Shown in pieces: positions 4,715 through 42,172 of a stretch of DNA of 43,567 nt. Position 1 is the stretch's first letter, and every line of letters starts with the position of its first letter. Location of the stretch: contig CM007317.1 in the NCBI GenBank assembly GCA_000333855.2, positions 799,606 to 843,172 on the forward strand, given 5' to 3'. Made by a program: the position numbers and the translations under genes. This DNA comes from Endotrypanum monterogeii (lineage: Eukaryota > Euglenozoa > Kinetoplastea > Trypanosomatida > Trypanosomatidae). Below the pieces are notes generated by a model that saw only the letters and a list, made by a program, of their open reading frames with translations, did no database searches and was not told the DNA's origin.

Positions 4715-4758
4715 AATAAATATACATTTATTTGTGTGCCTCGTTTCCTCTGCCCCCA

Positions 4759-7700
4759 ATGCATCTCTTAGCCGGCCGGTATATTTTGGTGAAGCAGATC
4801 GGAAAGGGAGGATTCGGGGCAGTGGAGGAGTATACAGACTCTATAACAAAAGAGAATGTCGCCATCAAAACGATACCCAGCCGATTCGTGAACCAGGAGA
4901 GTCATCGGCTGATGCGCGAGATCGACATTATGTGCTTTCTGCACGATGCACACCCGCACGTGATTGGCTACTTTAACATCTTCGTCACCAAAGGTGTGGC
5001 TGTGCCGAACCACAAGAGCTCCAAGGCCTCGGACGACCCACGGCAGAGTGTTGCACAGACGGCAGAGAATACGGAGTTCGAGCTTAACGTCATGGGCAAA
5101 CATTACGAAGGTCTAAGCGATGATGAGCGGCTGCGCCTGCATCACGAGGAGCTGATAGCGTTTGTGGGGAGACTTAATAAGACGGACGAGTTCAACGTTC
5201 ACATTGTCATGCCGCTGATGAAGGGTGACCTCTTCTACTTTATCCGGCTGCTTTCGTCCCAGTCGAGTGTTCAGCGGTTAGGCGTAACACATCAATTCTT
5301 AGCTCAAGTGGCCGTTGTGTTTGCCTTTCAGATATGTTTTGGTCTCGATTATTTGCATCAGTGCTCCATCATTCACCGTGATATGAAACCGGACAACGTT
5401 TTGGTGTGCCTCGACGTCACCAATCCGTACATGTCTACCGCGTTGATCGCAGACATGGGTCTTGCGCGAGATACTCAGCATAGCGATACCATCTATATTT
5501 GTACTCGTTATTATCGTCCACCAGAGGTGATCACTAGCGTGTCAGGGGGATCCACGCGGATCGACATCTGGTCCCTGGGCTGCATTTTTTACGAAATGTG
5601 CACAGGCCAGACTTTGTTCACGATGCGGACAGCTCTGAACGAGCGCGGCGAGTGGGACGGCGCCAAGGCGAGTCTTCAGCTAGAGGTGATTCTGAATACA
5701 ATCGGCACCCCCACGGCTGAAGATATCGACCTCTATATGCCCTCTGGCAACGCCAAGTTGTACCTGCAGCGCAGCACCACACGCCCGTCGCAGCTACGAC
5801 AACTCATCGAGCATCACTGGATTTTGAAGACAAGCGGCGATGAAAAAGAGAAGTGGATCGATCTCATCACCCGGTGCCTCGCTTTCTTTCCTGAGCAGCG
5901 TCCAACGGCGAAGCAGTTGTGCGAGCACCAGCTTTTTCGCGACTATAATGTGTTCTATGGCTCCAACGTGAAGCAGTATGCACCAACGCCATACAAAGCA
6001 TCATTCCAAGGTACATCTGGTAGTTCCCGCTCGGAGAATAAGTCGGCGATCTTGTCTCTTGTACAGCATGCCCTGCGCGAGACTATGCCACCAACGAATG
6101 AGGGGAGCAGCGACGAGGTGGACTCCTTGGAGGACAACAGCATTGCCGACAGGAGTATTCACAATGAAGGTGAGGTCGATGATGCAACCGATCGAGTGAG
6201 AACGTCGACTCATATGAACGATTGCGTGTCTTCCAAACATCTGTCCACGTCGTCGCTCAGCGACAGCCGTCGTCACCACTGCAGCAGCGAGCACAATGAA
6301 GAGAGGGCTATACCACGTGTATCGTATTCAGCCTTCGATTCCGTCGTCGTAAGTAGTGTACCACCCCCATACCCACACCCATCGTCGCCACCGTCATCAC
6401 CCCCATCACAGCAGCAGCAGCAGCAGCGGCCGTATGCGCTACCCTCGGTGGATATCAATTCCTCCGAATACTACGGAGCCTCGTACCTCGACGACGATGG
6501 TGATGAGGGTATCCCAGAAAGCGACCGCGGACATGTACCCAACACCGAGGATGAGGAGAGTTTCTCATACTTCCCGCAACCGGAGCCAAGTGTTTTCATG
6601 CCGCGCTTTAGCCCTGGAAATGTTTTTCGCAATAACTCTGAGCTGATGCCGCCTCGTAGCGCTGAGGTTTGTTTAAACGACAGCGGGCCGGCCACTGTGA
6701 GGATCCAGCTGCAAAACGTGTTGGCACGATCCGCCAGCTCCGAGGGGAGTGGGCCAGTCGTGGAGGACACGCCACCTTTGGCGCCGCGTGGCGCGTTCAA
6801 CGACCGAGTCACGTGCCGCCGATCAATCACTGCCGAAGAGGATGCATCATACGGGCTGATGGCGCAGAGCTCGAGTGTGCTTGACCCGAATAATTGTCGC
6901 TTCGACGAAAGCGACGATGTCATGATGAGCGGTGACCTTCGCTTGCCTCAAGGGACCGCACCACGCGTGATGGTGCCCGTCTTTGCCAGGAATGACGTTC
7001 CAACGCGGACGGCATACAACACAGTGGAAGGAGCCAACTGCGATACTTCACAAACCCACGAGCCCCTGGCGATACCTTCCGCCATACATACTGATTTGTA
7101 TCAATACACCTCACCCTTCCAAATCGGCAGCTGCCCGGGCGTCTCGATGCCCCCACCGCCGCCATCCTTTTATACAAAAGCCCTGCCTAAAGAAATGCTT
7201 CACTCGCCTAGTGTGTGCAAGCCCTCTGACAGCGGTGAGGCAACTGGGGGCACGGGTGATGTCTCGAGTACTGCGGCGGCAGTGCTGCAAGGGAAGACTC
7301 TCCAACCGGGCACCGAAACCTCTCAAGCGTTAGAGTCTCGTGGGCAGTACGACTACTTTGTTGAAGCAGGTTATTATCCTGGCCCTTCCTCCATCAGTGA
7401 GCTGCAAGTCGCGGCTCCTCGACAGCCAGCCAAGAAGTGCGGTACTTCACAGTACTCATTTGACCTGCTCGACGGCGTGCCCCTCGAGCAGGCGTCACAG
7501 CGTGCAGGCTCACCGTCGTCGTGTCAACGAGATCATCTTCTTACCGCCGCGTCGCCCCCAGGGCCCCCCTACCAAGATCCTTCGGCGAAAGGGGCGCAAT
7601 CCCTCGACCAGCAACGGGTGCCACCGCACTTTTCTCAACAACAGGGCGGGGCTCGATTCCCACCTATAAAAAATCAGGAGTTACGCCAGCGATACATGTC

Positions 7701-7842
7701 GTATATACACACCCCACAGAGCATCCAGGCGGCGACATCGGCGGTACTGGAGGAGCTTGGCGGCTGCACGCATGACGCCGAGCGCTCCAGCGATCTGCGT
7801 GAGTTACTGAACTACTACACCTGTCTCCAGGTAAGCCCGTGA
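4759..7842 (+). CDS. MAPK-like protein kinase (CMGC group) with long disordered tail
   Basis: This 1027-residue protein transfers phosphate from ATP to Ser/Thr. The catalytic domain spans about residues 7-395. It has the Gly-rich loop GKGGFGAV (15-22), VAIK with Lys37, helix-C Glu54, the catalytic loop HRDMKPDN (206-213), and DMG (232-234) in place of the usual DFG. T244-I245-Y246 is followed by a segment that aligns with the MAPK TxY-VATRWYRAPE region, which places it in the MAPK/CMGC group. About 60 extra residues (about 82-144) lie between beta-strands 4 and 5. Residues about 400-1027 are Ser/Pro-rich and look disordered, with a six-Gln run encoded by CAG repeats at 6409-6426. The open frame begins at a TTG (4732), but the ATG at 4759 directly precedes the kinase domain and is the chosen start. 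Substrates and upstream kinases cannot be read from the sequence. Activity is likely because the catalytic Lys, Glu and both Asp residues are present. Confidence 0.93.
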   Translation: MHLLAGRYILVKQIGKGGFGAVEEYTDSITKENVAIKTIPSRFVNQESHRLMREIDIMCFLHDAHPHVIGYFNIFVTKGVAVPNHKSSKASDDPRQSVAQTAENTEFELNVMGKHYEGLSDDERLRLHHEELIAFVGRLNKTDEFNVHIVMPLMKGDLFYFIRLLSSQSSVQRLGVTHQFLAQVAVVFAFQICFGLDYLHQCSIIHRDMKPDNVLVCLDVTNPYMSTALIADMGLARDTQHSDTIYICTRYYRPPEVITSVSGGSTRIDIWSLGCIFYEMCTGQTLFTMRTALNERGEWDGAKASLQLEVILNTIGTPTAEDIDLYMPSGNAKLYLQRSTTRPSQLRQLIEHHWILKTSGDEKEKWIDLITRCLAFFPEQRPTAKQLCEHQLFRDYNVFYGSNVKQYAPTPYKASFQGTSGSSRSENKSAILSLVQHALRETMPPTNEGSSDEVDSLEDNSIADRSIHNEGEVDDATDRVRTSTHMNDCVSSKHLSTSSLSDSRRHHCSSEHNEERAIPRVSYSAFDSVVVSSVPPPYPHPSSPPSSPPSQQQQQQRPYALPSVDINSSEYYGASYLDDDGDEGIPESDRGHVPNTEDEESFSYFPQPEPSVFMPRFSPGNVFRNNSELMPPRSAEVCLNDSGPATVRIQLQNVLARSASSEGSGPVVEDTPPLAPRGAFNDRVTCRRSITAEEDASYGLMAQSSSVLDPNNCRFDESDDVMMSGDLRLPQGTAPRVMVPVFARNDVPTRTAYNTVEGANCDTSQTHEPLAIPSAIHTDLYQYTSPFQIGSCPGVSMPPPPPSFYTKALPKEMLHSPSVCKPSDSGEATGGTGDVSSTAAAVLQGKTLQPGTETSQALESRGQYDYFVEAGYYPGPSSISELQVAAPRQPAKKCGTSQYSFDLLDGVPLEQASQRAGSPSSCQRDHLLTAASPPGPPYQDPSAKGAQSLDQQRVPPHFSQQQGGARFPPIKNQELRQRYMSYIHTPQSIQAATSAVLEELGGCTHDAERSSDLRELLNYYTCLQVSP
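6409..6426 (+). repeat. (CAG)6 coding for six Gln
   Basis: Six consecutive CAG codons inside the low-complexity tail of the kinase gene. This is a likely length-variable site between strains. Confidence 0.9.
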
Positions 7843-9494
7843 GGGCGGTATGGTGACTGAGACGAAGATGCATCCTTGTACAAATGCTGTTGGAGGAATA
7901 GGAACCGAGCGGGTGATGGAGGATAGCTGGAAAAAAAAATCAACTGGATGTGTGTTTCTCTGCTTGCTTGACAAAAAAAAAACGTGTACTTCGCAAAAAA
8001 GAGCTTTTCCTTGACACTGGCAGATGTAAAGACTCTCGGGGGGTTCTTCGCAGTGTTTTATTCGGGTGGACATGTTTGTGCGTGACTGCGGGGCTAGATA
8101 GCGCGTTGACAGTAGTCATGCGCTGAGTATCCAGCGCAGTGTGTGCAAAGAAATAAACTCTTGTTCAAGTGGGAGTGAGAGTGATGGGGGAATCTGATCG
8201 AGTATTCGGGGCAGATGTGATGTTGATGGCCAAGGAGATATACCAATCAGCGGCGGCGGACAAAAATGCACTTATAGAAATGCGATCCGCGAACACATCC
8301 CATTGAGTGTGTATGCTGGTCTCTTATTGCCTTTTTTCTTTCCACTCTTACGTCCCCTAAAAATCGCCTGTCTATTGCCCAACGTTTCTTTCCCCCCTCC
8401 ATCTTTCTATATTTTTCTCTCAGTGACATTGTTCCTTTCCCGTCGGTTTTTGCCCTGGTGAGTTGTTGCTCCACTTGTTTGGGTACTGTCTTCTCTCTTG
8501 CTCCCTCCTTTTTTTTTTCGCGGCTCAGGTTTCCCCTCTAAAAAAAAACATATATTTATTTTTTATATTTTCTTGCACATCTTGGGCTTCTGTTCACTTC
8601 TCTGTTTCCGTTCCCAGGCGATGCGACTGCTGCTGGCAGCGTGCACTTGGTCACTCTGTCCGTTTCTCTTCCGCTACCTTCATCATCCGCTCATTGTTCT
8701 TCCCCCACCTTCTTGCATCATCACCCCCCCCCCCTGCGCCACCACCTGCTGTCTGTGTGTCTGCGTCCTGGGGACGTGTGGCATCTCCAATCGGCTACAT
8801 TGTTTTTGTGGGTGTACCCAATTTTTTTTCAATACAAAATAGGGGACACTGTGGTCCTTCCCTTCTGATCATCTTTATATGTCATACACGCACTGTTATA
8901 TTGTCTCCCATAGAAAAAAAAAAGATGAGAAAAGGCCTTGCGTGCTGTGTCGCAAGCGTGCACTTTTTGTTTGTTTTATTTGCAGGCTGTGTTTGCATTT
9001 GGTTTATATATATATTATTTTTTTTTTTTTTGTGTCCTTCCTCTTCCTCTCCCTCCCTCTCCCAATTCGACCCGCTCCCGGCGTGCGTTTACCTTCCGAC
9101 TCAGGCGTTACCCCCAGCGCCGTTTTTTTTTTTCCGGCCCTTCATGGCTCAATGCTTTTTTTCTTGCGATACTATTGTTGTGCTCTGAATTCTCTGGGCC
9201 ATAAGGGTAGATATCTTTATTTCTCGTGGCGCGCGCGTGTGTATTCGTGTCGGGTAGTACATATATCCGATGGGGGTAATATCACTTTGCAGTTGTCTGC
9301 AAACACGACGAAAGGAAGGGACATTGGAATCGAGTGCATCGTTGTGGGGTTGTGTCAAGTCGCGTGCCGCCGCCCTCGTACAGATTTTTTTTTTCTCGTG
9401 GTTTGGAGGGGGATGTATGGGGGGTGAGGGTGGTGGAGGGTGGGTATATAGTCCATCCCTTCGGATGTGTGCATCCCCCTTCCCTTTTTAAATG

Positions 9495-14639: not shown

Positions 14640-17600
14640 ATGTCTCTGGAAGTGAATTCCGTACCCCCGGACTGCGGTGCGCCACATGCCGAGCTGCCTG
14701 TGGATGTGCCCTCAGCGGCTACTGAGTATTGCATCGAGCAAAAAAAGGATTTGGGGCAGTTCGAAACAAAGTCCACCGCAAAGCCGTCGTGCGAGGTGCC
14801 GTTGCTAGAAACGAGTGAATTCTCAACACAACTGACCCCTCCGAAACCTAGCTCGGTGAACCTCTTCCACACGCCCTCGGTCATAGCTGTGCCCACACCC
14901 GGCGACTCTCAGCTGCAGCTGCCCCACGAGACGATCAAGTCAGTGGTGTCGGGCCCAAGGCGGCTATGCGACCGCCCCGAAACCACCTCTCCTGGTCTGC
15001 GCCGGGTGCCGTGTGGCTGTGGTGGACGTGGCTGCCTCTGCGCCTATGCGCCGGAGCCTGAAATTCTGTCGGAGGAAACATGTTTGCTTTACAAGCACAA
15101 TTCGGATCGTGTTTCACAGAGCTCCGTTACACATCCGCAGATGGGCGGAATCCTTTCAGACCTCCGCAATCGAAGCAGACGGTGGTGTCGTGGTTCTGCC
15201 GCTCGTGCCGCGTGGAGAACGGCGACAGCATCAGGGTTCGAAGCAAAGACAAACCTCCTAATTGAAGGCATGACGTGCACCTCTTGTGCTGCCCGCATCG
15301 AGGCGAGGCTTGCGCATCTTGACGGTGTTCTCCACGCTTCTGTAAATTTCTCAACATTGAGTGGACAGGTGCTGCACCGCGCGGGTGTTGCCTCCCTCGA
15401 GAAGGTTGTGGGCTGCGTTGCCAATATGGGCTACACAGTTACTGTGCTCAACACAACCGGCGCACCCAATGCCATCGACAGCGAGAAACCCCAACATGGC
15501 GAGTGCACGTGTAGCACCAATCTGCGAGCTGTACCAGTGTATATGGGAAATGTTATGTCGGGTTATGAACATCGAGTTATCATCGAGGGGATGTCGTGTG
15601 CTTCGTGCGCAGCACGTATCGAGCGCGTGCTGCGAGGGATGCCGACTGTCCTGAGCTGTGTCGTCTCCTTCACCACTGGCATTGCTGTCATTACTACCCT
15701 TACTCCCAGTGATCACACGGACGCTTGCAAAGTGGTGGAGTCGTTGGGGTATGTTGTCACCGATACAGCGCTCCTACAGGCCGACACATCTGTTAGCCGG
15801 ACTCGGGAGGCGCTGGAGCGCACACGCGAAATTGCGGAGCATGAGCGCAACCTGATTGGCAGCGCTGTGCTATGTGCACCACTTGCGTTGGTGATGGTGA
15901 TGATGATGTTCATAGACATGACAAGACGACCGCGGCTGGTGGTTTTCATTGACACCATGCAGCTTTGCGCCGTCACTCCCATTGTGTTCCATTTCGGTAA
16001 AGGCTTCTTCGTCAGTGCGTGGCGCAGCTGGCAGCACAACGCGTACACAATGGATACCCTTGTCGCTATTGGCACCGGCTGCACCTATTTTTATTCCACC
16101 GTAGTGTATGTCTCCTCGCTTTTTATGCATCTACATACCCCCATGATGACGTACTTCGACACGGCCGGGGTGCTCACCACTTTCATGCTGCTTGGCCGCT
16201 TCCTCGAGGCGCGGGCGAAGCGTAGCACAAGCGGAGCACTCATAGAGCTTATGAATCTCATACCGTCAACATCTGTTTGTATACAGCCGGACGGGGGCGA
16301 GGTGCTGGTGAGCACGTCGCAGCTGCAGAAGGGTGCCGTGGTTCGTGTATTGGCAGCCGATCGTGTCCCGGTCGACGGAACTATCATCGAGGGCAGCTCA
16401 GAGGTGGATGAGCAGATGGTGACGGGGGAGTCCGTGTGGAGGCAGAAATGCCCCGGGGAGAAGGTGGTGGGTGGTACCCTCAACATCACCGCCACGCTGC
16501 TCATTCGCGCCGACAGCGTTGGGGAAGAAACCATGGTGGCACAGGTGCTGCGCATAGTTCAGGAGGCCCAGAACACAAAGCCAGCGGTCCAGCGAGCTGC
16601 CGATCGCATCGCCATGGTATTCGTACCCTTCGTCATTGGTTTCTCACTACTGACGCTGTGTGTGTGGCTGGCCCTTGGCATGCTGGGTGCCTACCCAGCA
16701 TCTTGGCGCGGGGCAGAGACGAGTTGGCAGTCATTTGCGTTTAACTTCTTCATTTCGACTGTCGTGTCCGCCTGCCCATGCGCGCTAGGGCTGGCGACTC
16801 CGACTGCTATCATGGTGGGTACGGGTGTCGGTGCCAAGAACGGGGTGCTGGTGAAGAGCGGCACCACACTGGAGGCGGTGCGCACTGTGAACTGCGTGGT
16901 ACTGGACAAGACGGGGACAATAACCAAGGGCCGCCTAGAGGTGATGAGAGCACACACCGCAGTGGGGGAGTCTGCGCTGGCATCAGCGACAGCGGTGCAC
17001 CCTCAAAGCACAATGGACGCTGCTCTGGTTTTCTGTCTTGTTGGGTTGGTGGAGGCGCAGTCGAATCACCCCGTTGCAAAGGCAGTCAGCGCAAAGCTTT
17101 TGGAGGAGGCAGGCAGGAGCGGCGATGAGCAGCAGCGTCGTTTCTGTTATGAGGTATCCTCTGTCGTGACACACGGCGGCTTGGGTGTGGAGGCCTCCGT
17201 AACCGTGACGGCAGCCGGCGACAATGGTGATGAGATTACCTTGGAGAAGGCGTCGCCACGTGTCTACCGTCTCCTCGTGGGCAATAGGTCACTTCTTCAC
17301 GAGCACAGTATTCACCTGAACCCTGAGTTGGCACATCTTGTGGAGGAGGAGAACAGGCGTGGTCTGACAACAGTGTTGGCTGCAATCGATGGTACAGCAT
17401 GCGCGCTCGTTAGCCTTATCGACGAGCCGAAGCGTGAGGCCCGCGGCGTCATTCAGTACTTACAGAGGGCGGGCATTCACGTGCTGATGGTGACTGGCGA
17501 CAGCGCCGGTGTGGCAGCGCGTATAGCGGCTGAGGTTGGTATCGATCCAAAAAATGTCTGTGCGGAGGCGCTCCCGAATACCAAGGTAGAAGTTGTAAGA

Positions 17601-18008
17601 AGCTTACAAGAAGAAGGATGGCGGGTAATGTTTGTTGGTGACGGCATCAACGACAGTCCTGCTTTGGCACAAGCGGACGTCGGTGTTTCGCTTGGCGCCG
17701 GTACTGATGTCGCTATTGAGGCCGCCGACGCGGTACTCGTGCGCAACCACCTTGTGGACTTGCTGAACTTGCAACTTCTTTCCAAGATCACCGTGCGACG
17801 CATCTACGGTAACTTCGTCTGGGCCTTTGGCTACAATTTATTGATGCTTCCCATTGCTAGCGGCCTCGTGTACCCATTCTTCCAAATTCAGCTCTCTCCC
17901 ATCGTGGCGGGTGCGGCGATGATGCTGTCAAGCCTCAGTGTGTTGGCATCAAGTTTGTCCATCCGCTGCTTTCGAGCGCACCGAAACAGCGACTTCTATA
18001 CTGAATAA
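14640..18008 (+). CDS. P1B-type copper-transporting ATPase
   Basis: This 1122-residue membrane pump uses ATP to move Cu(I) across a membrane, for export or for loading cuproenzymes. Two heavy-metal-associated domains carry GMTCTSC (210-216) and GMSCASC (317-323). Hydrophobic helices follow from about residue 405. The actuator loop has TGES (595-598), the metal site in the membrane is CPC (712-714), the phosphorylated Asp is D756 in DKTGT, the nucleotide-domain HP is 810-811, and GDGIND is 1000-1005. All catalytic elements are intact. CPC with GMxCxxC domains points to copper over zinc or cadmium. The first 200 residues are an extension with an unusual Cys cluster (CGC and CLC, from residue 125), which could bind metal. 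The residue two after TGES is Trp, where I expect Pro in most P1B pumps. The ATG at 14640 is the first of the frame. The cellular membrane is not evident from sequence. Confidence 0.97.
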   Translation: MSLEVNSVPPDCGAPHAELPVDVPSAATEYCIEQKKDLGQFETKSTAKPSCEVPLLETSEFSTQLTPPKPSSVNLFHTPSVIAVPTPGDSQLQLPHETIKSVVSGPRRLCDRPETTSPGLRRVPCGCGGRGCLCAYAPEPEILSEETCLLYKHNSDRVSQSSVTHPQMGGILSDLRNRSRRWCRGSAARAAWRTATASGFEAKTNLLIEGMTCTSCAARIEARLAHLDGVLHASVNFSTLSGQVLHRAGVASLEKVVGCVANMGYTVTVLNTTGAPNAIDSEKPQHGECTCSTNLRAVPVYMGNVMSGYEHRVIIEGMSCASCAARIERVLRGMPTVLSCVVSFTTGIAVITTLTPSDHTDACKVVESLGYVVTDTALLQADTSVSRTREALERTREIAEHERNLIGSAVLCAPLALVMVMMMFIDMTRRPRLVVFIDTMQLCAVTPIVFHFGKGFFVSAWRSWQHNAYTMDTLVAIGTGCTYFYSTVVYVSSLFMHLHTPMMTYFDTAGVLTTFMLLGRFLEARAKRSTSGALIELMNLIPSTSVCIQPDGGEVLVSTSQLQKGAVVRVLAADRVPVDGTIIEGSSEVDEQMVTGESVWRQKCPGEKVVGGTLNITATLLIRADSVGEETMVAQVLRIVQEAQNTKPAVQRAADRIAMVFVPFVIGFSLLTLCVWLALGMLGAYPASWRGAETSWQSFAFNFFISTVVSACPCALGLATPTAIMVGTGVGAKNGVLVKSGTTLEAVRTVNCVVLDKTGTITKGRLEVMRAHTAVGESALASATAVHPQSTMDAALVFCLVGLVEAQSNHPVAKAVSAKLLEEAGRSGDEQQRRFCYEVSSVVTHGGLGVEASVTVTAAGDNGDEITLEKASPRVYRLLVGNRSLLHEHSIHLNPELAHLVEEENRRGLTTVLAAIDGTACALVSLIDEPKREARGVIQYLQRAGIHVLMVTGDSAGVAARIAAEVGIDPKNVCAEALPNTKVEVVRSLQEEGWRVMFVGDGINDSPALAQADVGVSLGAGTDVAIEAADAVLVRNHLVDLLNLQLLSKITVRRIYGNFVWAFGYNLLMLPIASGLVYPFFQIQLSPIVAGAAMMLSSLSVLASSLSIRCFRAHRNSDFYTE

Positions 18009-31678: not shown

Positions 31679-33379
31679 GTCTGTTTGCGTGTGGGTGTGT
31701 GTGGGGGTTCGCGCTATGTGAGCAACTCGGACTTCATCGTGGAAAGTCTTAATAGGATAGCATTGGTGGTTCATGTCCTCCTCGTAATGTTGGACTCTGT
31801 TTCACTACCTCGCGGACCGGCTGGGGTTGGTGGCCCTTGAGTGCGGCTCTGGTGTTCTCGTTGCTACGGGCGTCTTCATCGCAACCAGTGAATTCCTCGA
31901 TTTTTTTTTTTGTCGCTCGCTGTGGTTCATGAGTTCAACGTATGTACACGAGCAGGGCTTTGGGTGGGTGGGGAGAGTTGTCGGGAGTGCAGTGGTGTCA
32001 TTTCTGGAGAAGTTGGAGTGTTCTACTCCTGAAGGGTGCCATGGATTCGTACCTAGAAAAAAAAATGCTTCGTTAGTCCTCATTGATGTTACCGGTGCCC
32101 CCCTTTTTTTTCTCGGTTTTGCCTGCCCCTTTAGTTCTCCTGTTTTTGTGTGAGCATATTTCGCATTCCCCTCCCTCAACAGATGATAAGTATTTTTAAA
32201 CTGTTGCGTGTTACCCCCCCCCCCCCCACCTTCTCTCTCTTTGTGTCTATTAAAAAAAAATTTTGTCTGCTCTGTTGGTTAATAGGAATTATCTGTGCGC
32301 TGACAACTCACCTTCATAGCGATATTGCACATTTGTTTTCATTTACCTCTCTACCTAGATGATGGAGCGACGTCAATAGTTTTGCGATATGCGAGTCGGT
32401 GTTCGTGATGAAGGACGGGCATCTACTCGATGCAGTATTCCCGCACTGCTCTTTTCGCGAGGGAATGTGCTCATGTGGGGGGGATTGCGTGATGCGTGGT
32501 TAGAGCTGAGGGGTGGTGGAGAGGAGCGCCGGCTGTCTGAGCAAGTGGGCGACTCTTAAGAGAGTGATTATTGTCCCCCTATTTTGTCTGCCAATGTTTG
32601 CATCCACACAGATTTGATGTACTCTCCGAGGAGAGAGAGGGGGAGGGGGGCTCTTCCTCGGATTTTCTCCTTGTATGTTTTTGTAATATTATCAAGTTGC
32701 CCTTTGGTTGCCCGTGTTTCGTCCTAGTGCCTTGGAGTTTGGCGTGTTGTCTTTTTTTCTCGTTTCGCTTTTTATTATTATTGTAAGGTTGTGAAGCAGG
32801 AAAGGAAAAAGAGATTAACAGTCGCGAGAGGTTGTGCATCCCGACTTTTGGGGGAGAGGGGGATAAAAGAGGGAATCATGAACTGCTGGGCAACGCAGCG
32901 GGCTGAAGAGCGAAGGGGAGGGGGGGGGGAGGAGGAGGCACTAGGCGTGCAGGAGTCAAGGGTGCAATCCACACTTCTGAGGAGGATGTCCTCCTTTGTA
33001 CCCTTTTTTAAATATCTTCCTCACTCAGTCATTCACCTCGAAAAAAAAGAGACAACCTGCCTCCATCCGCTTCTTTTTTTTCTGCTGAGGGCCCGGCGCC
33101 GTTCGTGTTTTGTGCGTACTGACATACGTCTGCTCGTGTGTATTTGCGTGTATCTGTGTGTGTCGGTAGGCATCCACCTGTGACACACAAGCGCAAAACC
33201 TGGGGGCCTTTGCTCTGTTTCTACGGAGAAGTCCACACCGCAGGTGCACTTCTGTGTCTTGTTCTTTCAGGGTTCCCCAGCTAAAGGAAGGTGGTCTGCC
33301 ATTCTGCTAGTTGCCACCTTTTTTTTTTTCTTTTTCCCACGTCTTGCCTGGGCCTGTTTCATACTCGCGACTACTTCTG

Positions 33380-33422
33380 TTTTTTTTTTTTTTTCGCACA
33401 CGCACGTGTGCTCGACATACAG
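33380..33422 (+). promoter_or_regulatory. Candidate trans-splice acceptor for the kinesin gene
   Basis: A 15-base T-run (33380-33394) is followed by the first clean AG at 33421-33422, 30 bases before the ATG. The tract also explains the Phe-rich non-AUG extension of the open frame, which I therefore leave out of the CDS. Confidence 0.55.
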
Positions 33423-33451
33423 ACACGCACACTCAAGACGGAATAGCGGGG

Positions 33452-36349
33452 ATGAGTATTGAGGTACACGTGCGTATTCGCCCGTCTGTGGCCAACGTCG
33501 TGTGGTCCAGTGCAGAGACGGTGCTTTACAGCACCGCCAACCCCAACACTCGCTACGTGTACAACAAGGTTTATCCCAGCAATAGCACCAATGAGTCTAT
33601 CTTCCACGGCATGGAAGCCATCGTCCATGCCGCGTTCGATGGAAAGAATGTAACTGTCATGGCGTACGGCCAAACCGGAAGCGGGAAGACGCATAGCATG
33701 ATAGGTGTAGATAAAGACCCCGGCATGGTTCCGCGAGCAGCGAAACTGCTGTTAGATTTAAAGCGTTCCACTCCTGGTTCGACAATACAGGCATTCTACA
33801 CGGAAATCTACAACGAGTCCGTGAAGGATCTTCTCGAGCCACAGAGAGGTGAGCTGGCATTGCACGACGCCCCCGACGGAGGGGTTTTCTTTGAGAAGAA
33901 GATGGTCGACGTGGAAACCTTCGAAGACTTTATTCAGCTGCAGTCGACAGCAGAGCGGAACCGAAAGTATGGAGTCACTAACCTGAACGAGCACAGTAGC
34001 CGGTCGCACGTCATTCTTACCTTCGAAATACATCGGCACAGTCGCTTAGGCAAAAGCGTGATCAACCTGGTAGATCTAGCGGGTTCTGAGTCGGCCTCAC
34101 GCGCCAACACTGAGGGAGTTTCGCTTCGCGAGGGCGGCCACATCAACCGCAGTCTTTTAACTCTAGGCAACGTGGTGGATGCTATTGTCGAGAAGCGACC
34201 TCATGTACCTTACAGAGACGCCAAGCTGACTCGCCTCCTTCGCACGTGCCTTGGTGGCTCTGGTATAACACTTGTGCTATGTTGTGTGAATCCATCTCGT
34301 GAAAACTTTGAGCAAACAGTATCGACACTACGCTTCACACAACGCGCGATGAAGATTAAGAACGACCCCGTGGTCGTGCTAAATATGCCACCGCTGTTCA
34401 CGCATCAGTACAGTGATGGAGCGCGGCAGCTCATCGAGGGTTTGCAGGAGTCCGCAGAGGCGGAGTATCAGCGCGGGGTACGTGACAGCTTTCTTTACTG
34501 CGGCAGCACCGTGGGCTCGGTTGTCAGAAATTATCAGGCACAAGTATCCGACTGCTTGCACGCGCTCGCGAACGCGCAACGCCTGCTCGTCGCGCACGAT
34601 CACGCCATGGCCATAGACCATATTGGCCAGCTATATAATCAGCAGAATGACCTGACAAGGCAGCGGATCAATAATCAAAGCCTCGCGGAAAACGAGCGCA
34701 AGCGGCAGTGCGATGTGGCCTCTGAAATCGAATGCAGAAAGGAGAAAATTGCGAAGTTAGAGGAGGAGCTTTCTGGGAAGATGTCTTCACTCGACACAAA
34801 TCTTGCAGGGTGGGAGTATCAGCTGTACGAGGCGCGCCATAAGCAGCGCACTGAGATGGACCTTCTTCTACAGTTGGAGCTGGCGCGTCGTGCACGGATC
34901 CAGTACGAGTGGGCGGTGTGCTTTGAGCGCATCGCATCCCGCAGTGTTCCACTCATTCAAGCCGGTTTCTCAGCTCTCCAGGAAAAGCTGATGGAACGCA
35001 GTAGTGGAAGCAACCACGGCACCACGGAAGCCACTGACACAGACCATGGGCACCATCTTCTAGCAATGATTTCTTCCTGGAAAAATGGTGATGCTGAACA
35101 ACGCGCTGTCTGCATGAAAGAACTTCGTGCAGCGCTCATGAAGGCTCGAGATGAATTCTCTGACCTCAAGACGGCCCACGAGATGGTGAGGGATGACATC
35201 GAGGAGGCGAAGAGGCAGCAGCAACAGAACATCCAACGTGGCTCCAATTCCGTCTCACCGCAACCGCGGCCTAACTTGTCAGACCTGGCAGAGGAAGATC
35301 TTCTGGAATACTACCGCGGGGTTGGCGACAGCGAGGTCGAAGATCGTATTCAGCGTCTTGAACGCGAGGAGAAGGCGTTGATGGCGCAGGCGCGGCGTGG
35401 CGTTCGCCGTGAGAGTCTGCGGCGCGTTCGTGAGAGCCTTCATGTGTCGCGCTCCAGCCGGGGAGGCAGCAGTCGTTCGTTACAGGGTGGCACCACCATC
35501 ACTCGCCACACCGAAGTGACCGGCAGCGCGGCAAGCTCGAATGCGCATCAAGGCTTGGGATGCGCAGCGTCGGACGAGGAGGGTTGCGTTAGCTCACCTC
35601 AAGCAGGGGTGAGTGCTCCAGCGGAAGGACGAGGCGGTCGCAGCACGGCCAGCTACGCGGACGGCGTCAAGAACGCGCTTTCCATCTTGGACAGTTTGAA
35701 AGCGCAGCTCCAGCGCAAGGGCGACACCGGTCATGCATCTCCCACCGCAGCATCTTTAAACCGGAATCTGCAGACACAGTCGCAGCGTCATCATGAGGTT
35801 CCCGATGTGCGTGGGAAGTGCAACGCGCGTAGCAGTAGCGAGGCGCTTCGCCGCCGAAATCGTAAAGACGCTGATGAGACGGTGGTCTACCATGATCCTG
35901 AGGAGGGCTATGCCGGGGAGGGGCGCCCGCGCACTGCTTCCCGCTCTGCTGTGCACCGACACCCCTCGGCCACTACACTCAACAGCGCCGTAGACACGGA
36001 GAACATGTCACTTGCAGAACTTTATCAGGTATTTATGGGGAAGGAGAACTGGTCCAGGCCGCAGTCCTCCGCTGCGGCTGCGATGTCTCACGCAGCACCT
36101 AAATACACAGCGGTCGAGGAGGACAACGTGGCATTCAAAACACGTGAGGAGTCGGAGGTGAGCGGGGTGGACGGGCAGACAGATTCGCATCATCTAACTT
36201 CGTCCCCGCCAATCGGAATCGCTGCGCGTCGCAAGCTGAAGCGGCAGACATCTCGCCCGGCGGTGGAGCGGGCACTTTACGCCTTGAACTCAAACTCTCA
36301 CTCGCCTTCCCCCTCAGCAGAGCGTCGTAGCCGTTCGAGACGTGTGTGA
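33452..36349 (+). CDS. Kinesin with N-terminal motor domain
   Basis: This 965-residue motor protein hydrolyses ATP to move along microtubules. The motor domain spans about residues 1-305 with GQTGSGKT (73-80), SSRSH (182-186) and DLAGSE (208-213), all intact, plus the YRDAKLTRLL segment of the microtubule-binding face. The motor starts almost at residue 1, which is short for kinesins and leaves no N-terminal cover strand extension. A charged helical region with probable coiled coil follows (about 390-640), then a Ser/Arg-rich tail (about 650-965) that may be disordered and bears SRSS-type basic patches at the end. The frame is open upstream to a TTG at 33311, but that part is the poly-T splice tract, so the ATG at 33452 is chosen. 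The N-terminal motor predicts plus-end movement by family rule. The subfamily is not clear, and trypanosomatids have many lineage-specific kinesins. Confidence 0.96.
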   Translation: MSIEVHVRIRPSVANVVWSSAETVLYSTANPNTRYVYNKVYPSNSTNESIFHGMEAIVHAAFDGKNVTVMAYGQTGSGKTHSMIGVDKDPGMVPRAAKLLLDLKRSTPGSTIQAFYTEIYNESVKDLLEPQRGELALHDAPDGGVFFEKKMVDVETFEDFIQLQSTAERNRKYGVTNLNEHSSRSHVILTFEIHRHSRLGKSVINLVDLAGSESASRANTEGVSLREGGHINRSLLTLGNVVDAIVEKRPHVPYRDAKLTRLLRTCLGGSGITLVLCCVNPSRENFEQTVSTLRFTQRAMKIKNDPVVVLNMPPLFTHQYSDGARQLIEGLQESAEAEYQRGVRDSFLYCGSTVGSVVRNYQAQVSDCLHALANAQRLLVAHDHAMAIDHIGQLYNQQNDLTRQRINNQSLAENERKRQCDVASEIECRKEKIAKLEEELSGKMSSLDTNLAGWEYQLYEARHKQRTEMDLLLQLELARRARIQYEWAVCFERIASRSVPLIQAGFSALQEKLMERSSGSNHGTTEATDTDHGHHLLAMISSWKNGDAEQRAVCMKELRAALMKARDEFSDLKTAHEMVRDDIEEAKRQQQQNIQRGSNSVSPQPRPNLSDLAEEDLLEYYRGVGDSEVEDRIQRLEREEKALMAQARRGVRRESLRRVRESLHVSRSSRGGSSRSLQGGTTITRHTEVTGSAASSNAHQGLGCAASDEEGCVSSPQAGVSAPAEGRGGRSTASYADGVKNALSILDSLKAQLQRKGDTGHASPTAASLNRNLQTQSQRHHEVPDVRGKCNARSSSEALRRRNRKDADETVVYHDPEEGYAGEGRPRTASRSAVHRHPSATTLNSAVDTENMSLAELYQVFMGKENWSRPQSSAAAAMSHAAPKYTAVEEDNVAFKTREESEVSGVDGQTDSHHLTSSPPIGIAARRKLKRQTSRPAVERALYALNSNSHSPSPSAERRSRSRRV

Positions 36350-36692: not shown

Positions 36693-39480
36693 ATGTATTC
36701 GTGTTTGTGTGTTTGTTAGATTCTTTTTTTCTTGTCATAGATACTCAAATGTTTCTGTTTTTGTGTTATCACGCTATTTCATCGTTCCCAGGAAAAAAAG
36801 GACGACGGGGGATCGGGGATCGCTTCACTCTCTACTTCTTGTTTTTTTTTTTCCGCTGCACTCCTTCGCTTCGGTTCTCTAGATGTGTGCGATTTCTTTT
36901 TTTTTTTTCCGTCTCCGGGTCTACCTCGCTCAACGTCTGAGATCATCTATCCTCGCTCTTCCCGGGTTTGTCGTCTTTGTGCATTTCTCGTAATCCTATT
37001 GCCGAGTGGTAGTGATGGGTCTGTTTGCATCTGCGCCGCTTCCCCCATTCCTCTCTTTTTTTTCCCTCCTCCTCCTCCAATGCTGATGCTGTTATTCTGG
37101 GGGAAAGAGGATGGAGAGGTGTAGGGTGTGTGAGGGGAAAATAGACTTCCTTTTCCGTCCCCTTTCATTTTTTTTCCCAAGCTGCGGACGCTCTCCCCCG
37201 CCTCTCCATATTGCGTGCGCGTGTTCGCTCCAGGGTAATTTTCTATTAGACTGCCCCCCCCCCCCTCCACTGCTACCTTTGCTTGGCTACACGGGTTAAA
37301 GAAAAGCAGAGGGGAGGAGGGAGGGGGCGAGCGAGAAAAGGCTGCCCCGTGGTACATGAAAATTTCGCTATGAGTCTTGCGTAGGGATGGGGCCACCTGC
37401 CCTATTCCCCTGGTCGAGCATGTAGTGACCCAAGAAAAAATGTTGTTAGTTTCGCTGCCAAGCACTTTTTTTAAATATTATATATTCTAGATGTTTGCTT
37501 CTACATACCTCGTTGTATGATTTCTTTCAACGCTCCTGGCAGCACGTGCGTGGTCACATATGCAGGCTCTCGTCTTTGTATGTTTGTGTGAGTGTCATTC
37601 AGGTGAACACGAAAAGACAAAAAAATCGGACGCTCTTCGAAGTTATATCTGCCCCTGTTCACTCCCTCCTCTTGCCCCCCCACAAAAACAACAACAGCAA
37701 CAACAACAATGGTCACGACTCTGGGCCTGAGCGACGCACCGCTGTCGTCATTGATCTGCTCCTCAGTTTGGCTCTGTGTCCTCCTTTAGTCCCTCTCCTT
37801 TATACCCTCCTCCCTTTTTTTTTGTTTTTTTTTTTGGGTGACTGCGTTGTACATCTTTGCTCGTCTCTGGCATGCACACGTCATGCTTTTGCATGCTTTC
37901 ATATACATCGGTATGCATGCTCATGATTGTAAATCTCTTGTACTGGGGCATCGAAGAAACATATCTTTTCTTACCCTCCCCCCTCCGCCCTCCCCCCTCC
38001 CTCTCTCCATTCCACGCGCCTTCTCCAATCACCCGCCAGGTTGTGACGACAGCTGAGCACACATCAGCAGCTCCTCCGAAAGGGAAAGGAAGAGGAAAAC
38101 GGAAAGGTGAGGGGCAAACAAACTAAAAAAAAAAGCACTGGGCGATTCACATTACAATTTTTTTTTTTCCGGGACAGCGGTTTTTCTCGCAGCTGCCTTG
38201 GGTATTCCCCCCTCCCCCTCCCCACATACGAAATACACACGCGAACACACCGAGGTAATCGTCTCCGATACCTCAACTTTTCTCCATTTCCACCATTGCT
38301 CGCGACCCACACGTTGTGAAGCTTCTCATCTTGTCTCACACCACCTCTCACACACTCTAGGAAGGAAAAAAGAAAAAAATCATCGTCGGATCGCGCTCTC
38401 TTATTCCCTCATCGAGGCACTACGCAGTGATCGTGATAGCGCGGTGCACGTTCACCTACAGGATCTCCTTTTCACCTATTTTTCTTCGTATCTACACACC
38501 CACACCCAACCTCCTCGCTTACCTTTTTTTTTTTTTACTTCTTTTGTGTATTGGGACTATTTCACAGTTCCTGTGCTCCCCGCGTTGTTTCCAGCGGGTG
38601 CGTTCAGCTGGGTGCTGCATTTGTGTGAGCGAAAGAGCAGTGTTACATCCACGCACTTCTTTCACTGCAAGGGATTTCTGTATTACATCTCTTTTCCCCT
38701 TGCTGCATTCAGCTTCGTCTGTGGCAGATAAACCCTTTCTTTCACTATTTCCCTACGTTGCGGCTTTTTTTTTTCGTTGTTTGTCTGCGTGTCTTTCTCC
38801 TGACATTACCCTCCCTTCATTTCGTTGTTCACTTGTTTTTTTCTTTTCCATTGCTCTCGTTCGCTCGCTCTCCTCTTTACCATCATTAATTATTCGCTCG
38901 TTTGTTTCATTTTTGTTTTTGCTTGTGTATATATCTATCCATCCATCTGTATAGATTGGTTTAAAGCGAGGCGGAGTGAGGGAGAGTGAGGAAGAGGGGT
39001 GGGGGAGAATCCATCAAGTAAACACGAAACGAGTGAGGCAACCAAAGGGAAAATCAGAAAAAAAAACGGATTTTTCTTTTGACCCTTCCGTCCTTCTCCC
39101 CAATCCGTGACATAGCCATATCATCACCGCCAACCGCCTTGTATTATTATCATCACCTCATCTTCATTTTTCGCTGAAAGATCGCGTGCTCTCCTTGAGG
39201 AGAAGAAGGGAAAGAAGCGCAGGTTAAATCAGTTGACTAAACCACATCAGGAAAGAGGAGGGAGGAGAGGAAGACGTGGAGCAGCGCTGGTGCCACCGTT
39301 TCAGACCAGACGCAGCCTCTAACTTTTAACTAGAACGCTGGTCTGTCTCGCTCTCTTTCTCTCTCTCTCTTTTTATTTTTTTGAAAGGACTACAGAGGTG
39401 GCTGGGGCGGTGCTGCGTCGCTGCTTTGGTTTAGGGATACGCCGACGTGATTCGGGGCGCCACGATTTCTTCCTTGGGGT

Positions 39481-39547: not shown

Positions 39548-42172
39548 ATGTCATTGGGGGGCGAGACATACGATGTAGTCACTACCGTCGAGTCGCTCAA
39601 CGCGAGTTTTTCCTTCGATCCAGATTGCTTTGTGGAACGGGTTCTGCCGGATGCTTCGCGGGACTTGGTGAGGCAGGTTCTGCTGACGAAGTCACGCGTG
39701 TCAGCCGTGGATGGGAAAACTGTGACGGACAGTCCAGAGCTGAAGGCCGCTCTTCTAGATGCCGTCATGCGCCACCACAACGCGTCGTTGGATTCGGCCG
39801 GGAGGGAGAAGCTTTCCATTTTTGATTCAGCGACGCTGCTTCCAAAGACACGAATCATCGTCACATTTGAGCGCACCGATGTGCCGGCGTCGAGAGTCGC
39901 GATTGAAGGAAGCGTTGTGAGCAACGGTGCTGTCAGTGACGTGGCAACTCCGAGCTCAGCTGCCGTCCAGGAGCTGATCGACGAGATGACTCCTCCGTCT
40001 GGTGAGGAACCGCCGCCGGCGTTACCGGCCATCGACAACGAATTGCGCGGGTCTTTCCGGCGCAGCATGATAGGTAATCCAGCGGCAATGTCGGCTTTCT
40101 TAAAAGATTCTGTTGGCGCTAGGTCACCAGTATCGAATTCTGTGTCGAGTTCTCGTCTTCTAACCTCAAACACAAGCGGCAATCTTTCTCAGCCGTCCTG
40201 TCGCCGACTACACTCACCGCCTCCGCAGCCCACGCTGCGGCGCAGTCAAAGCGACTGCAGCGCTGCCTCATTCGACCTTGAAGACAGCGAGGCGGTCTCA
40301 GAAGCGTCGTCGAGTGACTTCGACACAGTACACATTTCTCAGCTGAAAGGCGCAACCCTGTCGGACCCCTCAGCTAGTGCCGTTGCGACTGCAGAGCCAC
40401 ACGCTGGGCCTGATTCCCCCACACCGGGGTTACTTGAGTTTGAGAAGATGAAGATCTCGATGCGTGGGGACGAAATGCTGCGCCATGTTGGGTCTGTTGG
40501 GGGGTGTACCTATGGACAAGCCTCCAACGACTCAGCAGAGATGACGGTAAAGGGTCGTATACGACGTGCGCTGGATCGTGTGGAGCCAGGGTACTGCGTC
40601 ATTTGCGTGACGCAGGATGTCAACCCTATCGCTGAAATCGAGCTGCTTGCCTTGACGGCGAAGAAACACGTTGTGGCCCTCGACTTGGGCGTGAAACTGC
40701 GCCTGCGACCTAAACCAGAGGTGGTCGCGACCGAATTTGCGGAGGCCATGCGCAGCGGTGGCTGGTTTGTCATGGTCAACGCGCACAAGTCTATCAGCAC
40801 TTGTCTTGTTCTCGAAGAACTTCTAGAGGATGCCCACAAGCACAACCTAGAGGGATTTGACCCATCTTCGCGCATTATCATCGCATTAGAGTCGCACCCA
40901 CATTTTCCTAAAGCTTTGACGCACCACGCTGTGATAATCAAGCTTGTCTCCAATTTTCAGGGTTCTTCTATTCTATCGGATTCTTTGGCTGCTTCGGTTT
41001 CACGTGCGCGCCTCGTTACGGCGGACGCGCTGGCCCAGTCGCAGCTTGGTGCTGGATCCGTGCGTGGATCGCAGATCTCCGTAGCACCGACGATTGCCTT
41101 GCCAAAATCTGCCAAGAAGCACGTTCGTATCAGCGCCGCCGTGGACATCATCGACATCGCTCCACGAGAGGTGGTAAAATGTTCAAAGCGCGACAGCCCC
41201 ATCGATGTTAGCGGCAGCGTTGTGTTATTCAAATCCTTTAGTGGGGTCGCTGGTGATAAGTTCCTCTGCGTGCAGTCCGCTGGAGAGGAGGGCCGCTTCG
41301 CTGTCGGATCCTCGTGCGGTAATGTGTACTTGCTCGATTCACTCGGTAACTCACTCCTCCAGGCGCACGCCCACAATGCCTCCATCTGGGATGTCAGCTT
41401 CAAAGATAAGTTTCGGTTTGCCACAGGTTGTGAGGATGGGACAGCCGCCTCCTGGAGGCTCGGCACCTCACTCGGCTCTTTCTCGAATGATGACTCTGTG
41501 CTGACACCGACGTCGGCGACGTCGCTCGGCTCAGATGTTTACTGCGTTTCCTACCTAAAAAATATGAACCCATCTCCCTTGCTGATCGGTGGCTTACACA
41601 GCAGCCTTGTTATTCGCGAGGCGGACAGCGATGCTGTGCATCTTGTGCCCATCACCTCTAATGCGCAGGTTATAGACTGCTTGCCGCACTCAGCAACCGC
41701 CCTAGTCGGTGGCGGTGATGGTTCTGTGTGCGTCGTTGACGTGCAGACATCCACTTCCATAGGCACACTGGTAGATCACACTCGTAAGCTACCGGCCCTC
41801 GCTGTGCGTGACGATAATCAGTTCTTCACTGGCTCCTTCGATTGTAGTATCCTTTCGTGGGACTTGAGAGTACCGGGTGGTGTGACGTCGTCCGTGCAAG
41901 GCTCTGAGGCGACCACAGGAATATCGGCATACACGATGCATACCCTCAAACTGAAAAACTACGTCACTGGTCTGGACGTAGACGACGTGCACCTGGCTGC
42001 CAGCGTTGGCGAGAACCTGTACCTGTGGGATGTTCGCAAGCTACAGGTAGTGCTGGGTGGCTACCCACAGGGTTGGAAGGGTCTCTCACGTGGGGTGAGA
42101 GTGCAGAGTGCTGCACACCTCGTGGTAACCGCGTCGCCGGACGGACTTGTCCGATTTTGGAGCTTCGTTTAG
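39548..42172 (+). CDS. WD40 propeller protein with a dynein-heavy-chain D6-like segment
   Basis: This 874-residue protein has three parts. Residues 1-120 look ordered but unfamiliar, and about 120-325 is a Ser/Pro-rich linker. Residues about 335-471 resemble the last AAA unit (D6/AAA6) of dynein heavy chains: TQDVNPIAEI is like the G-x-DP-x-x-EI region, GGWFVMVNAHK (Trp406, Asn411, His413) matches the G-x-W-x4-N-x-H pattern, and HPHFP (450-454) matches the later FP segment. No Walker A is visible, as in dynein AAA6. Residues about 558-874 form seven WD-like blades with endings such as ILSWDLR, LYLWDVR and VRFWSFV, enough for one closed propeller. The open frame starts at GTG (39398), and the first ATG is at 39548. 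Possible roles are in axonemal or transport assembly, by analogy only. The D6 match is from pattern memory and should be treated as an inference. Confidence 0.85.
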   Translation: MSLGGETYDVVTTVESLNASFSFDPDCFVERVLPDASRDLVRQVLLTKSRVSAVDGKTVTDSPELKAALLDAVMRHHNASLDSAGREKLSIFDSATLLPKTRIIVTFERTDVPASRVAIEGSVVSNGAVSDVATPSSAAVQELIDEMTPPSGEEPPPALPAIDNELRGSFRRSMIGNPAAMSAFLKDSVGARSPVSNSVSSSRLLTSNTSGNLSQPSCRRLHSPPPQPTLRRSQSDCSAASFDLEDSEAVSEASSSDFDTVHISQLKGATLSDPSASAVATAEPHAGPDSPTPGLLEFEKMKISMRGDEMLRHVGSVGGCTYGQASNDSAEMTVKGRIRRALDRVEPGYCVICVTQDVNPIAEIELLALTAKKHVVALDLGVKLRLRPKPEVVATEFAEAMRSGGWFVMVNAHKSISTCLVLEELLEDAHKHNLEGFDPSSRIIIALESHPHFPKALTHHAVIIKLVSNFQGSSILSDSLAASVSRARLVTADALAQSQLGAGSVRGSQISVAPTIALPKSAKKHVRISAAVDIIDIAPREVVKCSKRDSPIDVSGSVVLFKSFSGVAGDKFLCVQSAGEEGRFAVGSSCGNVYLLDSLGNSLLQAHAHNASIWDVSFKDKFRFATGCEDGTAASWRLGTSLGSFSNDDSVLTPTSATSLGSDVYCVSYLKNMNPSPLLIGGLHSSLVIREADSDAVHLVPITSNAQVIDCLPHSATALVGGGDGSVCVVDVQTSTSIGTLVDHTRKLPALAVRDDNQFFTGSFDCSILSWDLRVPGGVTSSVQGSEATTGISAYTMHTLKLKNYVTGLDVDDVHLAASVGENLYLWDVRKLQVVLGGYPQGWKGLSRGVRVQSAAHLVVTASPDGLVRFWSFV

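Follow-up and report, generated by a model that had tools for sequence, protein, structure and literature searches.

In the trypanosomatid Endotrypanum monterogeii, one uninterrupted reading frame encodes an 874-aa protein in which the large domain of dynein AAA6 (D6) stands detached from any motor, followed by a seven-bladed WD40 propeller and preceded by an N-terminus that resembles a PDZ domain. The observation of the earlier note, a D6-like segment joined to a WD40 domain, stands, and on stronger evidence than was stated there; the role then proposed, a dynein regulator or a decoy of the motor ring, is one of several options. On balance we favor the reading that the protein belongs to an old pair of kinetoplastid paralogues in which the AAA6 large subdomain was captured as a binding module, and that it serves as a non-catalytic adaptor, probably of the flagellum or of flagellum-associated microtubules.

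The gene occupies 39548..42172 on the forward (+) strand of the window, by which we mean the whole 43,567-nucleotide stretch of DNA analyzed. Its ATG at 39548 is the first one downstream of a pyrimidine-rich tract (~39340-39380) which, with its AG dinucleotides (39340..39396, + strand), is likely a trans-splice acceptor region, as read directly from the sequence. The Porcisia hertigi orthologue is 83% identical and of equal length, with a matching start codon position, and in a tree built from D6 and propeller the window protein groups near Porcisia and Leishmania. Other frames of the window include a kinesin motor ORF (33311-36349, upstream on the same strand; PF00225, E 1.8e-84), two separate ORFs with histidine phosphatase matches (PF00300; 18958-20463 and 22043-23827, the best stretch of the second beginning inside the profile), a P-type ATPase with heavy-metal-associated domains, probably a copper-type pump (14640-18008; PF00403, PF00122), and a protein kinase ORF of 1,036 aa (4732-7842; PF00069).

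The D6 domain spans residues 332-470 (40541..40957, + strand). The landmarks by which it had been recognized are where they were claimed to be: the string G-x-W-x4-N-x-H, found once in the protein, forms the beta-3 strand at residues 404-413 and is followed by K414-S415 (together 40757..40792, + strand), and F453-P454 (40904..40909, + strand) belongs to an E-x-H-P-H-F-P segment. The same string is present in all 13 dynein heavy chains of this genome, in whose aligned AAA6 it is followed by FP in 10 cases and, in the remaining three, by VP, LP or IP. One heavy chain (L018 / G000:C13:577427-580516) carries a long acidic, glycine-rich insertion in AAA6, placed after the G-x-W strand and before the FP position, which reads IP. 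As family landmarks, W406 and FP hold in 51/51 aligned members (the window protein plus 50 of its 75 D6-WD40 relatives, some partial), but N411 and H413 do not, with N in 29/51 and H in 23/51.

The Pfam profile PF03028 matches residues 351-462 of the window protein over profile positions 7-112 of 115 (E 6.2e-6), with 26.6 bits, which is below the curated cut-off of 30.5. The score is 27.6 bits for the N-terminal piece alone and 31.2 bits in a six-frame search of the genome; it rises to 34.5-38.8 bits, above the cut-off, for the paralogue L002 and three relatives (P0053, P0063, P0073), and all 51 aligned members match at E<=1. For AAA6, AAA5 and AAA4, profiles were built from 13, 13 and 10 rows, respectively, taken from the dynein heavy chains of this genome. 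Profile-profile alignment (hhalign) with AAA6 gave a probability of 98.8% (E 9e-17, 125 columns) versus 2.8% with AAA5 and 0.2% with AAA4, and either subfamily by itself still gave about 98% with AAA6. One hundred column-shuffled AAA6 controls reached at most 4% and a score of 21, versus 97 for the real profile with the same script; the reversed AAA6 profile gave 0.2%, and the AAA5 score, also 21, was no higher than that of the best column shuffle. An AAA5 or AAA4 origin of D6 is thus ruled out by this comparison, which covered AAA4 to AAA6. When the PDB was searched with the D6 alignment, 22 sequences were found at E<=0.001, each of more than 4,000 residues (20 named dynein, one DHC2 and one labelled CFAP57). 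The window D6 stretch alone gave weak dynein matches (best E 0.4), and all eight matches listed at E<=10 were of heavy-chain length. AlphaFold block means are 85-98 over residues 332-470, and structure comparison by Foldseek and VIA led from D6 to dynein. The two outcomes that would speak against D6, a lack of any AAA or dynein profile match and an unrelated predicted fold, were looked for, and in both respects the results came out in its favor. Profiles and predicted structure together indicate that the segment is homologous to the AAA6 large domain over its whole length and is specific to AAA6.

PF03028 is the sole dynein or AAA match in the window protein, and the Pfam scan returned no AAA lid, no dynein C-terminal domain and no other AAA module, which bears out the earlier claim that D6 is here separated from any motor. 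The Walker A string G-x4-G-K-[ST] is absent from D6 in 51/51 members (2/51 carry it outside D6), as it is from the AAA6 stretches of the 13 heavy chains of this genome. Because it comes with neither a lid nor another AAA module and has no Walker A, the D6 module cannot be a motor and, from its sequence, is unlikely to bind nucleotide. Dynein heavy chains have six AAA modules, a stalk, a linker, a P-loop in AAA1 and a length of more than 4,000 aa, whereas D6-WD40 proteins have 874 or about 620 aa. The likeness to dynein AAA6 thus comprises the whole large-domain fold, with the 125 columns aligned in register, the G-x-W and FP landmarks and the absence of Walker A from both; the differences lie in the missing lid and ring, in the invariant K-S and E-x-H-P patch proper to the D6-WD40 family, and in its PDZ-like and WD40 flanks.

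The propeller comprises residues 558-874 (41219..42169, + strand). It matches PF00400 with 29.7 bits (cut-off 27), its AlphaFold model contains 28 strands between residues 558 and 873, and Foldseek finds propeller chains (best E 4e-18), so that the seven-bladed domain fused to D6 is confirmed. The earlier note had also drawn a link with dynein intermediate chains, which are WD40 proteins; this part fares poorly. Among the best PDB matches listed are designed propellers, F-box WD40 proteins and DAW1 (5nnz_B, E 2.8e-19), whereas a chain named 'DYNEIN TAIL' appears at E 4e-13, with many WD40 chains above it, in the best 60 of 347 matching PDB sequences. The propeller sequence therefore looks generic and its tie to intermediate chains weak. 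It shares the seven-bladed fold with dynein intermediate chains and other WD40 adaptors of the G-beta/DAW1 type, but differs from them by the D6 and PDZ-like domains in front, and among the matches listed it shows no specific tie to intermediate chains.

The earlier note missed the PDZ-like N-terminus, as it did a second gene described below. In the AlphaFold model of residues 1-110 (39548..39877, + strand), the order of strands and helices fits a PDZ domain by eye, with block means of 86-97 over residues 11-80, 55-58 over 81-100 and 95 over 101-110. Compared with the PDB, the family profile of this region found chains of DegP/DegQ, which we take to be PDZ proteases, with a best E of 1.3e-4 and one chain at E<=0.001 of the 69 at E<=10. 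Pfam PDZ_2 matched 3/11 members at E<=10 (best 6e-4), with the unrelated family Y4YQ_C reaching 8e-4 in one, and the window protein alone had no Pfam PDZ match. Family profile and model thus suggest a PDZ-like domain, weakly so for the window protein by itself.

Two linkers separate the three domains. The first, of low complexity and poorly conserved (residues 111-330; 39878..40537, + strand), is predicted to be disordered, with pLDDT mostly <50. The second (residues 471-555; 40958..41212, + strand; pLDDT <50 over 469-555), likewise predicted to be disordered, takes the place of the AAA6 lid and the dynein C-terminal domain. It contains a short motif conserved in both subfamilies, KKxVRIsAxVDIxdIaPRE (residues 519-540; 41102..41167, + strand), in which V526 is invariant and V532 and V535 nearly so, and which looks like a candidate linear binding motif.

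When the window protein is compared with P0020 of T. brucei gambiense, identical residues amount to 74/138 in D6 and 166/311 in the WD40 domain, but to 41/153 in the first linker and 30/82 in the PDZ-like domain (aligned residues). We count this retention of D6 and propeller, while the first linker drifts, as a sequence pattern that would suit an adaptor with a captured module. In addition to W406 and F453-P454, the positions K414-S415 and N359-P360 are fixed in the 51 aligned members, and A412, E448, H450 and P451 are invariant as well, across both paralogues. In the alignment, K414-S415 and E-x-H-P differ from the heavy-chain consensus, and this patch would be the likeliest surface for a partner to bind.

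By searching the genome that carries the window (30.7 Mb in 44 contigs), we found a second gene of the same kind, matched at G000:C30:1334494-1335999, whose ORF (L002:1123-3015) starts at a GTG and runs for 630 codons, against about 617 in its relatives. It has the identical PDZ-like/D6/WD40 order, a shorter first linker and 30% identity to the window protein, and its D6 scores above the window D6 against PF03028. A six-frame census of D6 at E<=1 returned the 13 heavy chains and two detached domains, both of them D6-WD40 fusions, and no others; with the paralogue D6 as query, the two D6-WD40 genes and one heavy chain were the only matches at E<=10. Homologue searches, in which the 7,992-7,996 candidates sharing most words with the query were scored for sequence similarity, retrieved the 75 relatives, a few of them fragments. 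A third search gave the first subfamily only (21 proteins already found and one fragment), and two weak hits, P0075 and P0076, are generic WD40 proteins. All organism-named relatives are from trypanosomatids (Leishmania, Porcisia, Novymonas, Leptomonas, Angomonas, Strigomonas, Phytomonas and Trypanosoma), so that the proposed restriction to this lineage holds as far as searched; the transcript name 'Tbor' suggests that relative P0067 comes from Trypanoplasma borreli.

The tree of D6 and propeller resolves two subfamilies, each forming one clade (100/100). Since neither subfamily is split in this tree, and since named species of both Trypanosoma and Leishmania have both paralogues, the duplication came before the divergence of these genera; rows that branch outside the organism-named ones, within each subfamily, may place it earlier still. 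In a tree of D6 alone, a single long branch divides the 13 heavy chains from the D6-WD40 rows (each group 100/99), the program warning that long branches meet, and the second subfamily is weakly held (83/61). Descent from one particular heavy chain was considered, but this tree, with its long branches between groups, points to no donor.

The architecture is already recorded in databases. At least ten entries from Angomonas, Trypanosoma and Leptomonas carry the name 'Dynein heavy chain region D6 P-loop domain(-containing protein)'; these are the orthologues or paralogues themselves, with a label and no function seen in the entries. Neither the window protein nor its paralogue has an NCBIfam match at E<=0.01. 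As far as the literature was searched, supplementary files lying outside the search, we found no work on the function of any D6-WD40 protein: the available passages of PMC7617938, PMC9981465 and PMC2239267 (12/16 places) name none, and the terms sought do not occur in the accessible part of PMC12637542. The flagellar protein LmxM.29.3360 (Beneke et al., PMC6615630) was rejected as a candidate paralogue, given that LmjF.30.3360 is calmodulin-like in the accessible listing of PMC6027440, assuming that the numberings agree. The sole hint on expression comes from Table 1 of PMC11520290, where swimming cells of Crithidia are strongly enriched in CFAC1_300105600, a protein named 'D6 of dynein motor/Ankyrin repeats'; its relation to the D6-WD40 family is uncertain, and it may not be a member. 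A D6-ankyrin protein was sought in the genome that carries the window and rejected, none of the 49 Ank_2 places listed, a lower bound, falling in a D6 ORF. The same genome has a 3,759-aa frame with numerous ankyrin matches (G000:C35:695223-701576).

The domain identities, the missing P-loop, the conservation and the two paralogues are computed results, from which we infer the role and location of the protein. An adaptor is suggested by the combination of three domains of binding type with two long linkers, and by the absence of a catalytic site. The AAA6 large subdomain would have been captured, without lid, stalk, P-loop or the rest of the ring, between the PDZ-like domain and the propeller; each of the three would hold one partner, and the long flexible linkers would allow partners to be bridged without use of ATP. 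The place of action would probably be the flagellar or flagellum-associated microtubule cytoskeleton, because D6 is of dynein ancestry and because T. brucei WDR2 offers a precedent. In the accessible text of PMC12239596, WDR2 (Tb927.7.4700) is a kinetoplastid-specific, motor-placing adaptor with extra N-terminal modules and a C-terminal seven-bladed WD40 domain, which positions a kinesin at the centrin arm of the cell. By that description, on which alone the comparison is based, it differs in its motor, a kinesin, and in its N-terminal unknown domains, coiled coil and PB1. Queries with the window protein and with one T. brucei-group protein per subfamily found no near relative among solved chains; the best hits were propellers, either designed or ordinary, or there was none at E<=1e-10. 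Because no member turned up in these queries although the 96-nm repeats of T. brucei and L. tarentolae are deposited in the PDB, a role in the regular, ordered axonemal repeat is not supported, and the window protein is probably not an ordered part of it.

The same precedent serves a second explanation, which we hold to be possible though doubtful, namely a scaffold of some dynein-unrelated kinetoplastid structure (hook complex, centrin arm, attachment zone or basal body) in which D6 would be a reused relic fold. The trypanosomatid origin of every organism-named relative suits it, as does the action of both WDR1 and WDR2 at the T. brucei centrin arm in the accessible text of PMC12239596; however, WDR2 is described there with two unknown N-terminal domains, a coiled coil and PB1, and not with PDZ-D6.

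The regulator or decoy proposed earlier, in which free D6 would dock on a dynein heavy chain or an AAA6-binding factor and lock, compete for or recruit the motor, now appears rather unlikely. AAA6 normally touches the AAA5 and AAA1 faces in the dynein ring. Such action in trans would fit with the module being a genuine and completely folded AAA6 large domain, with the 13 heavy chains as possible targets and with the several outer-arm heavy chains near the top of the D6-profile PDB matches; yet the D6-WD40 clade lies far from all 13 heavy chains of its own genome (branch lengths 2.06 and 0.93), and the invariant K414-S415 and E-x-H-P patch, being unlike their consensus, fits a new partner better than mimicry. 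It is improbable that D6 would complete or block the ring of one particular heavy chain through the AAA5 and AAA1 faces while the propeller tethers the motor to a flagellar site, as a kinetoplastid dynein brake or anchor.

We give little credence to a cytoplasmic factor for dynein-arm assembly, comparable to DNAAF10 or DNAAF18/DAW1, in which D6 would be a template or capture surface for heavy chains. The rank of DAW1 among the best solved WD40 matches listed points that way, and absence from the solved axonemal repeats would fit a cytoplasmic protein; however, F-box proteins and designed propellers score equally well or better, which makes the DAW1 match unspecific. A D6 in front of the propeller would also be new for this class, DNAAF10 and DNAAF18 being described, in the accessible part of PMC12633730, as WD40-repeat proteins of 357 and 415 aa. 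Finally, a chance or convergent AAA-like resemblance, or a gene model fusing two genes, is scarcely credible and both were rejected: the sub-threshold Pfam score of the window protein alone would allow the former, but the column shuffles fall far below the real profile, and the frame is single and unbroken in both paralogues and in relatives from many species.

For a specialist, the surprise would be the fusion and its age, and less so the D6 label, already in databases. An AAA6 without catalysis that both scaffold paralogues have retained over the evolution of trypanosomatids would be a natural test of what the AAA6 surface is able to bind on its own. Should D6 not touch dynein, the family would illustrate well how part of a motor can become a binding module; should it do so, the family would be a motor regulator particular to this lineage and would offer clean access to the control of the flagellum in these parasites.
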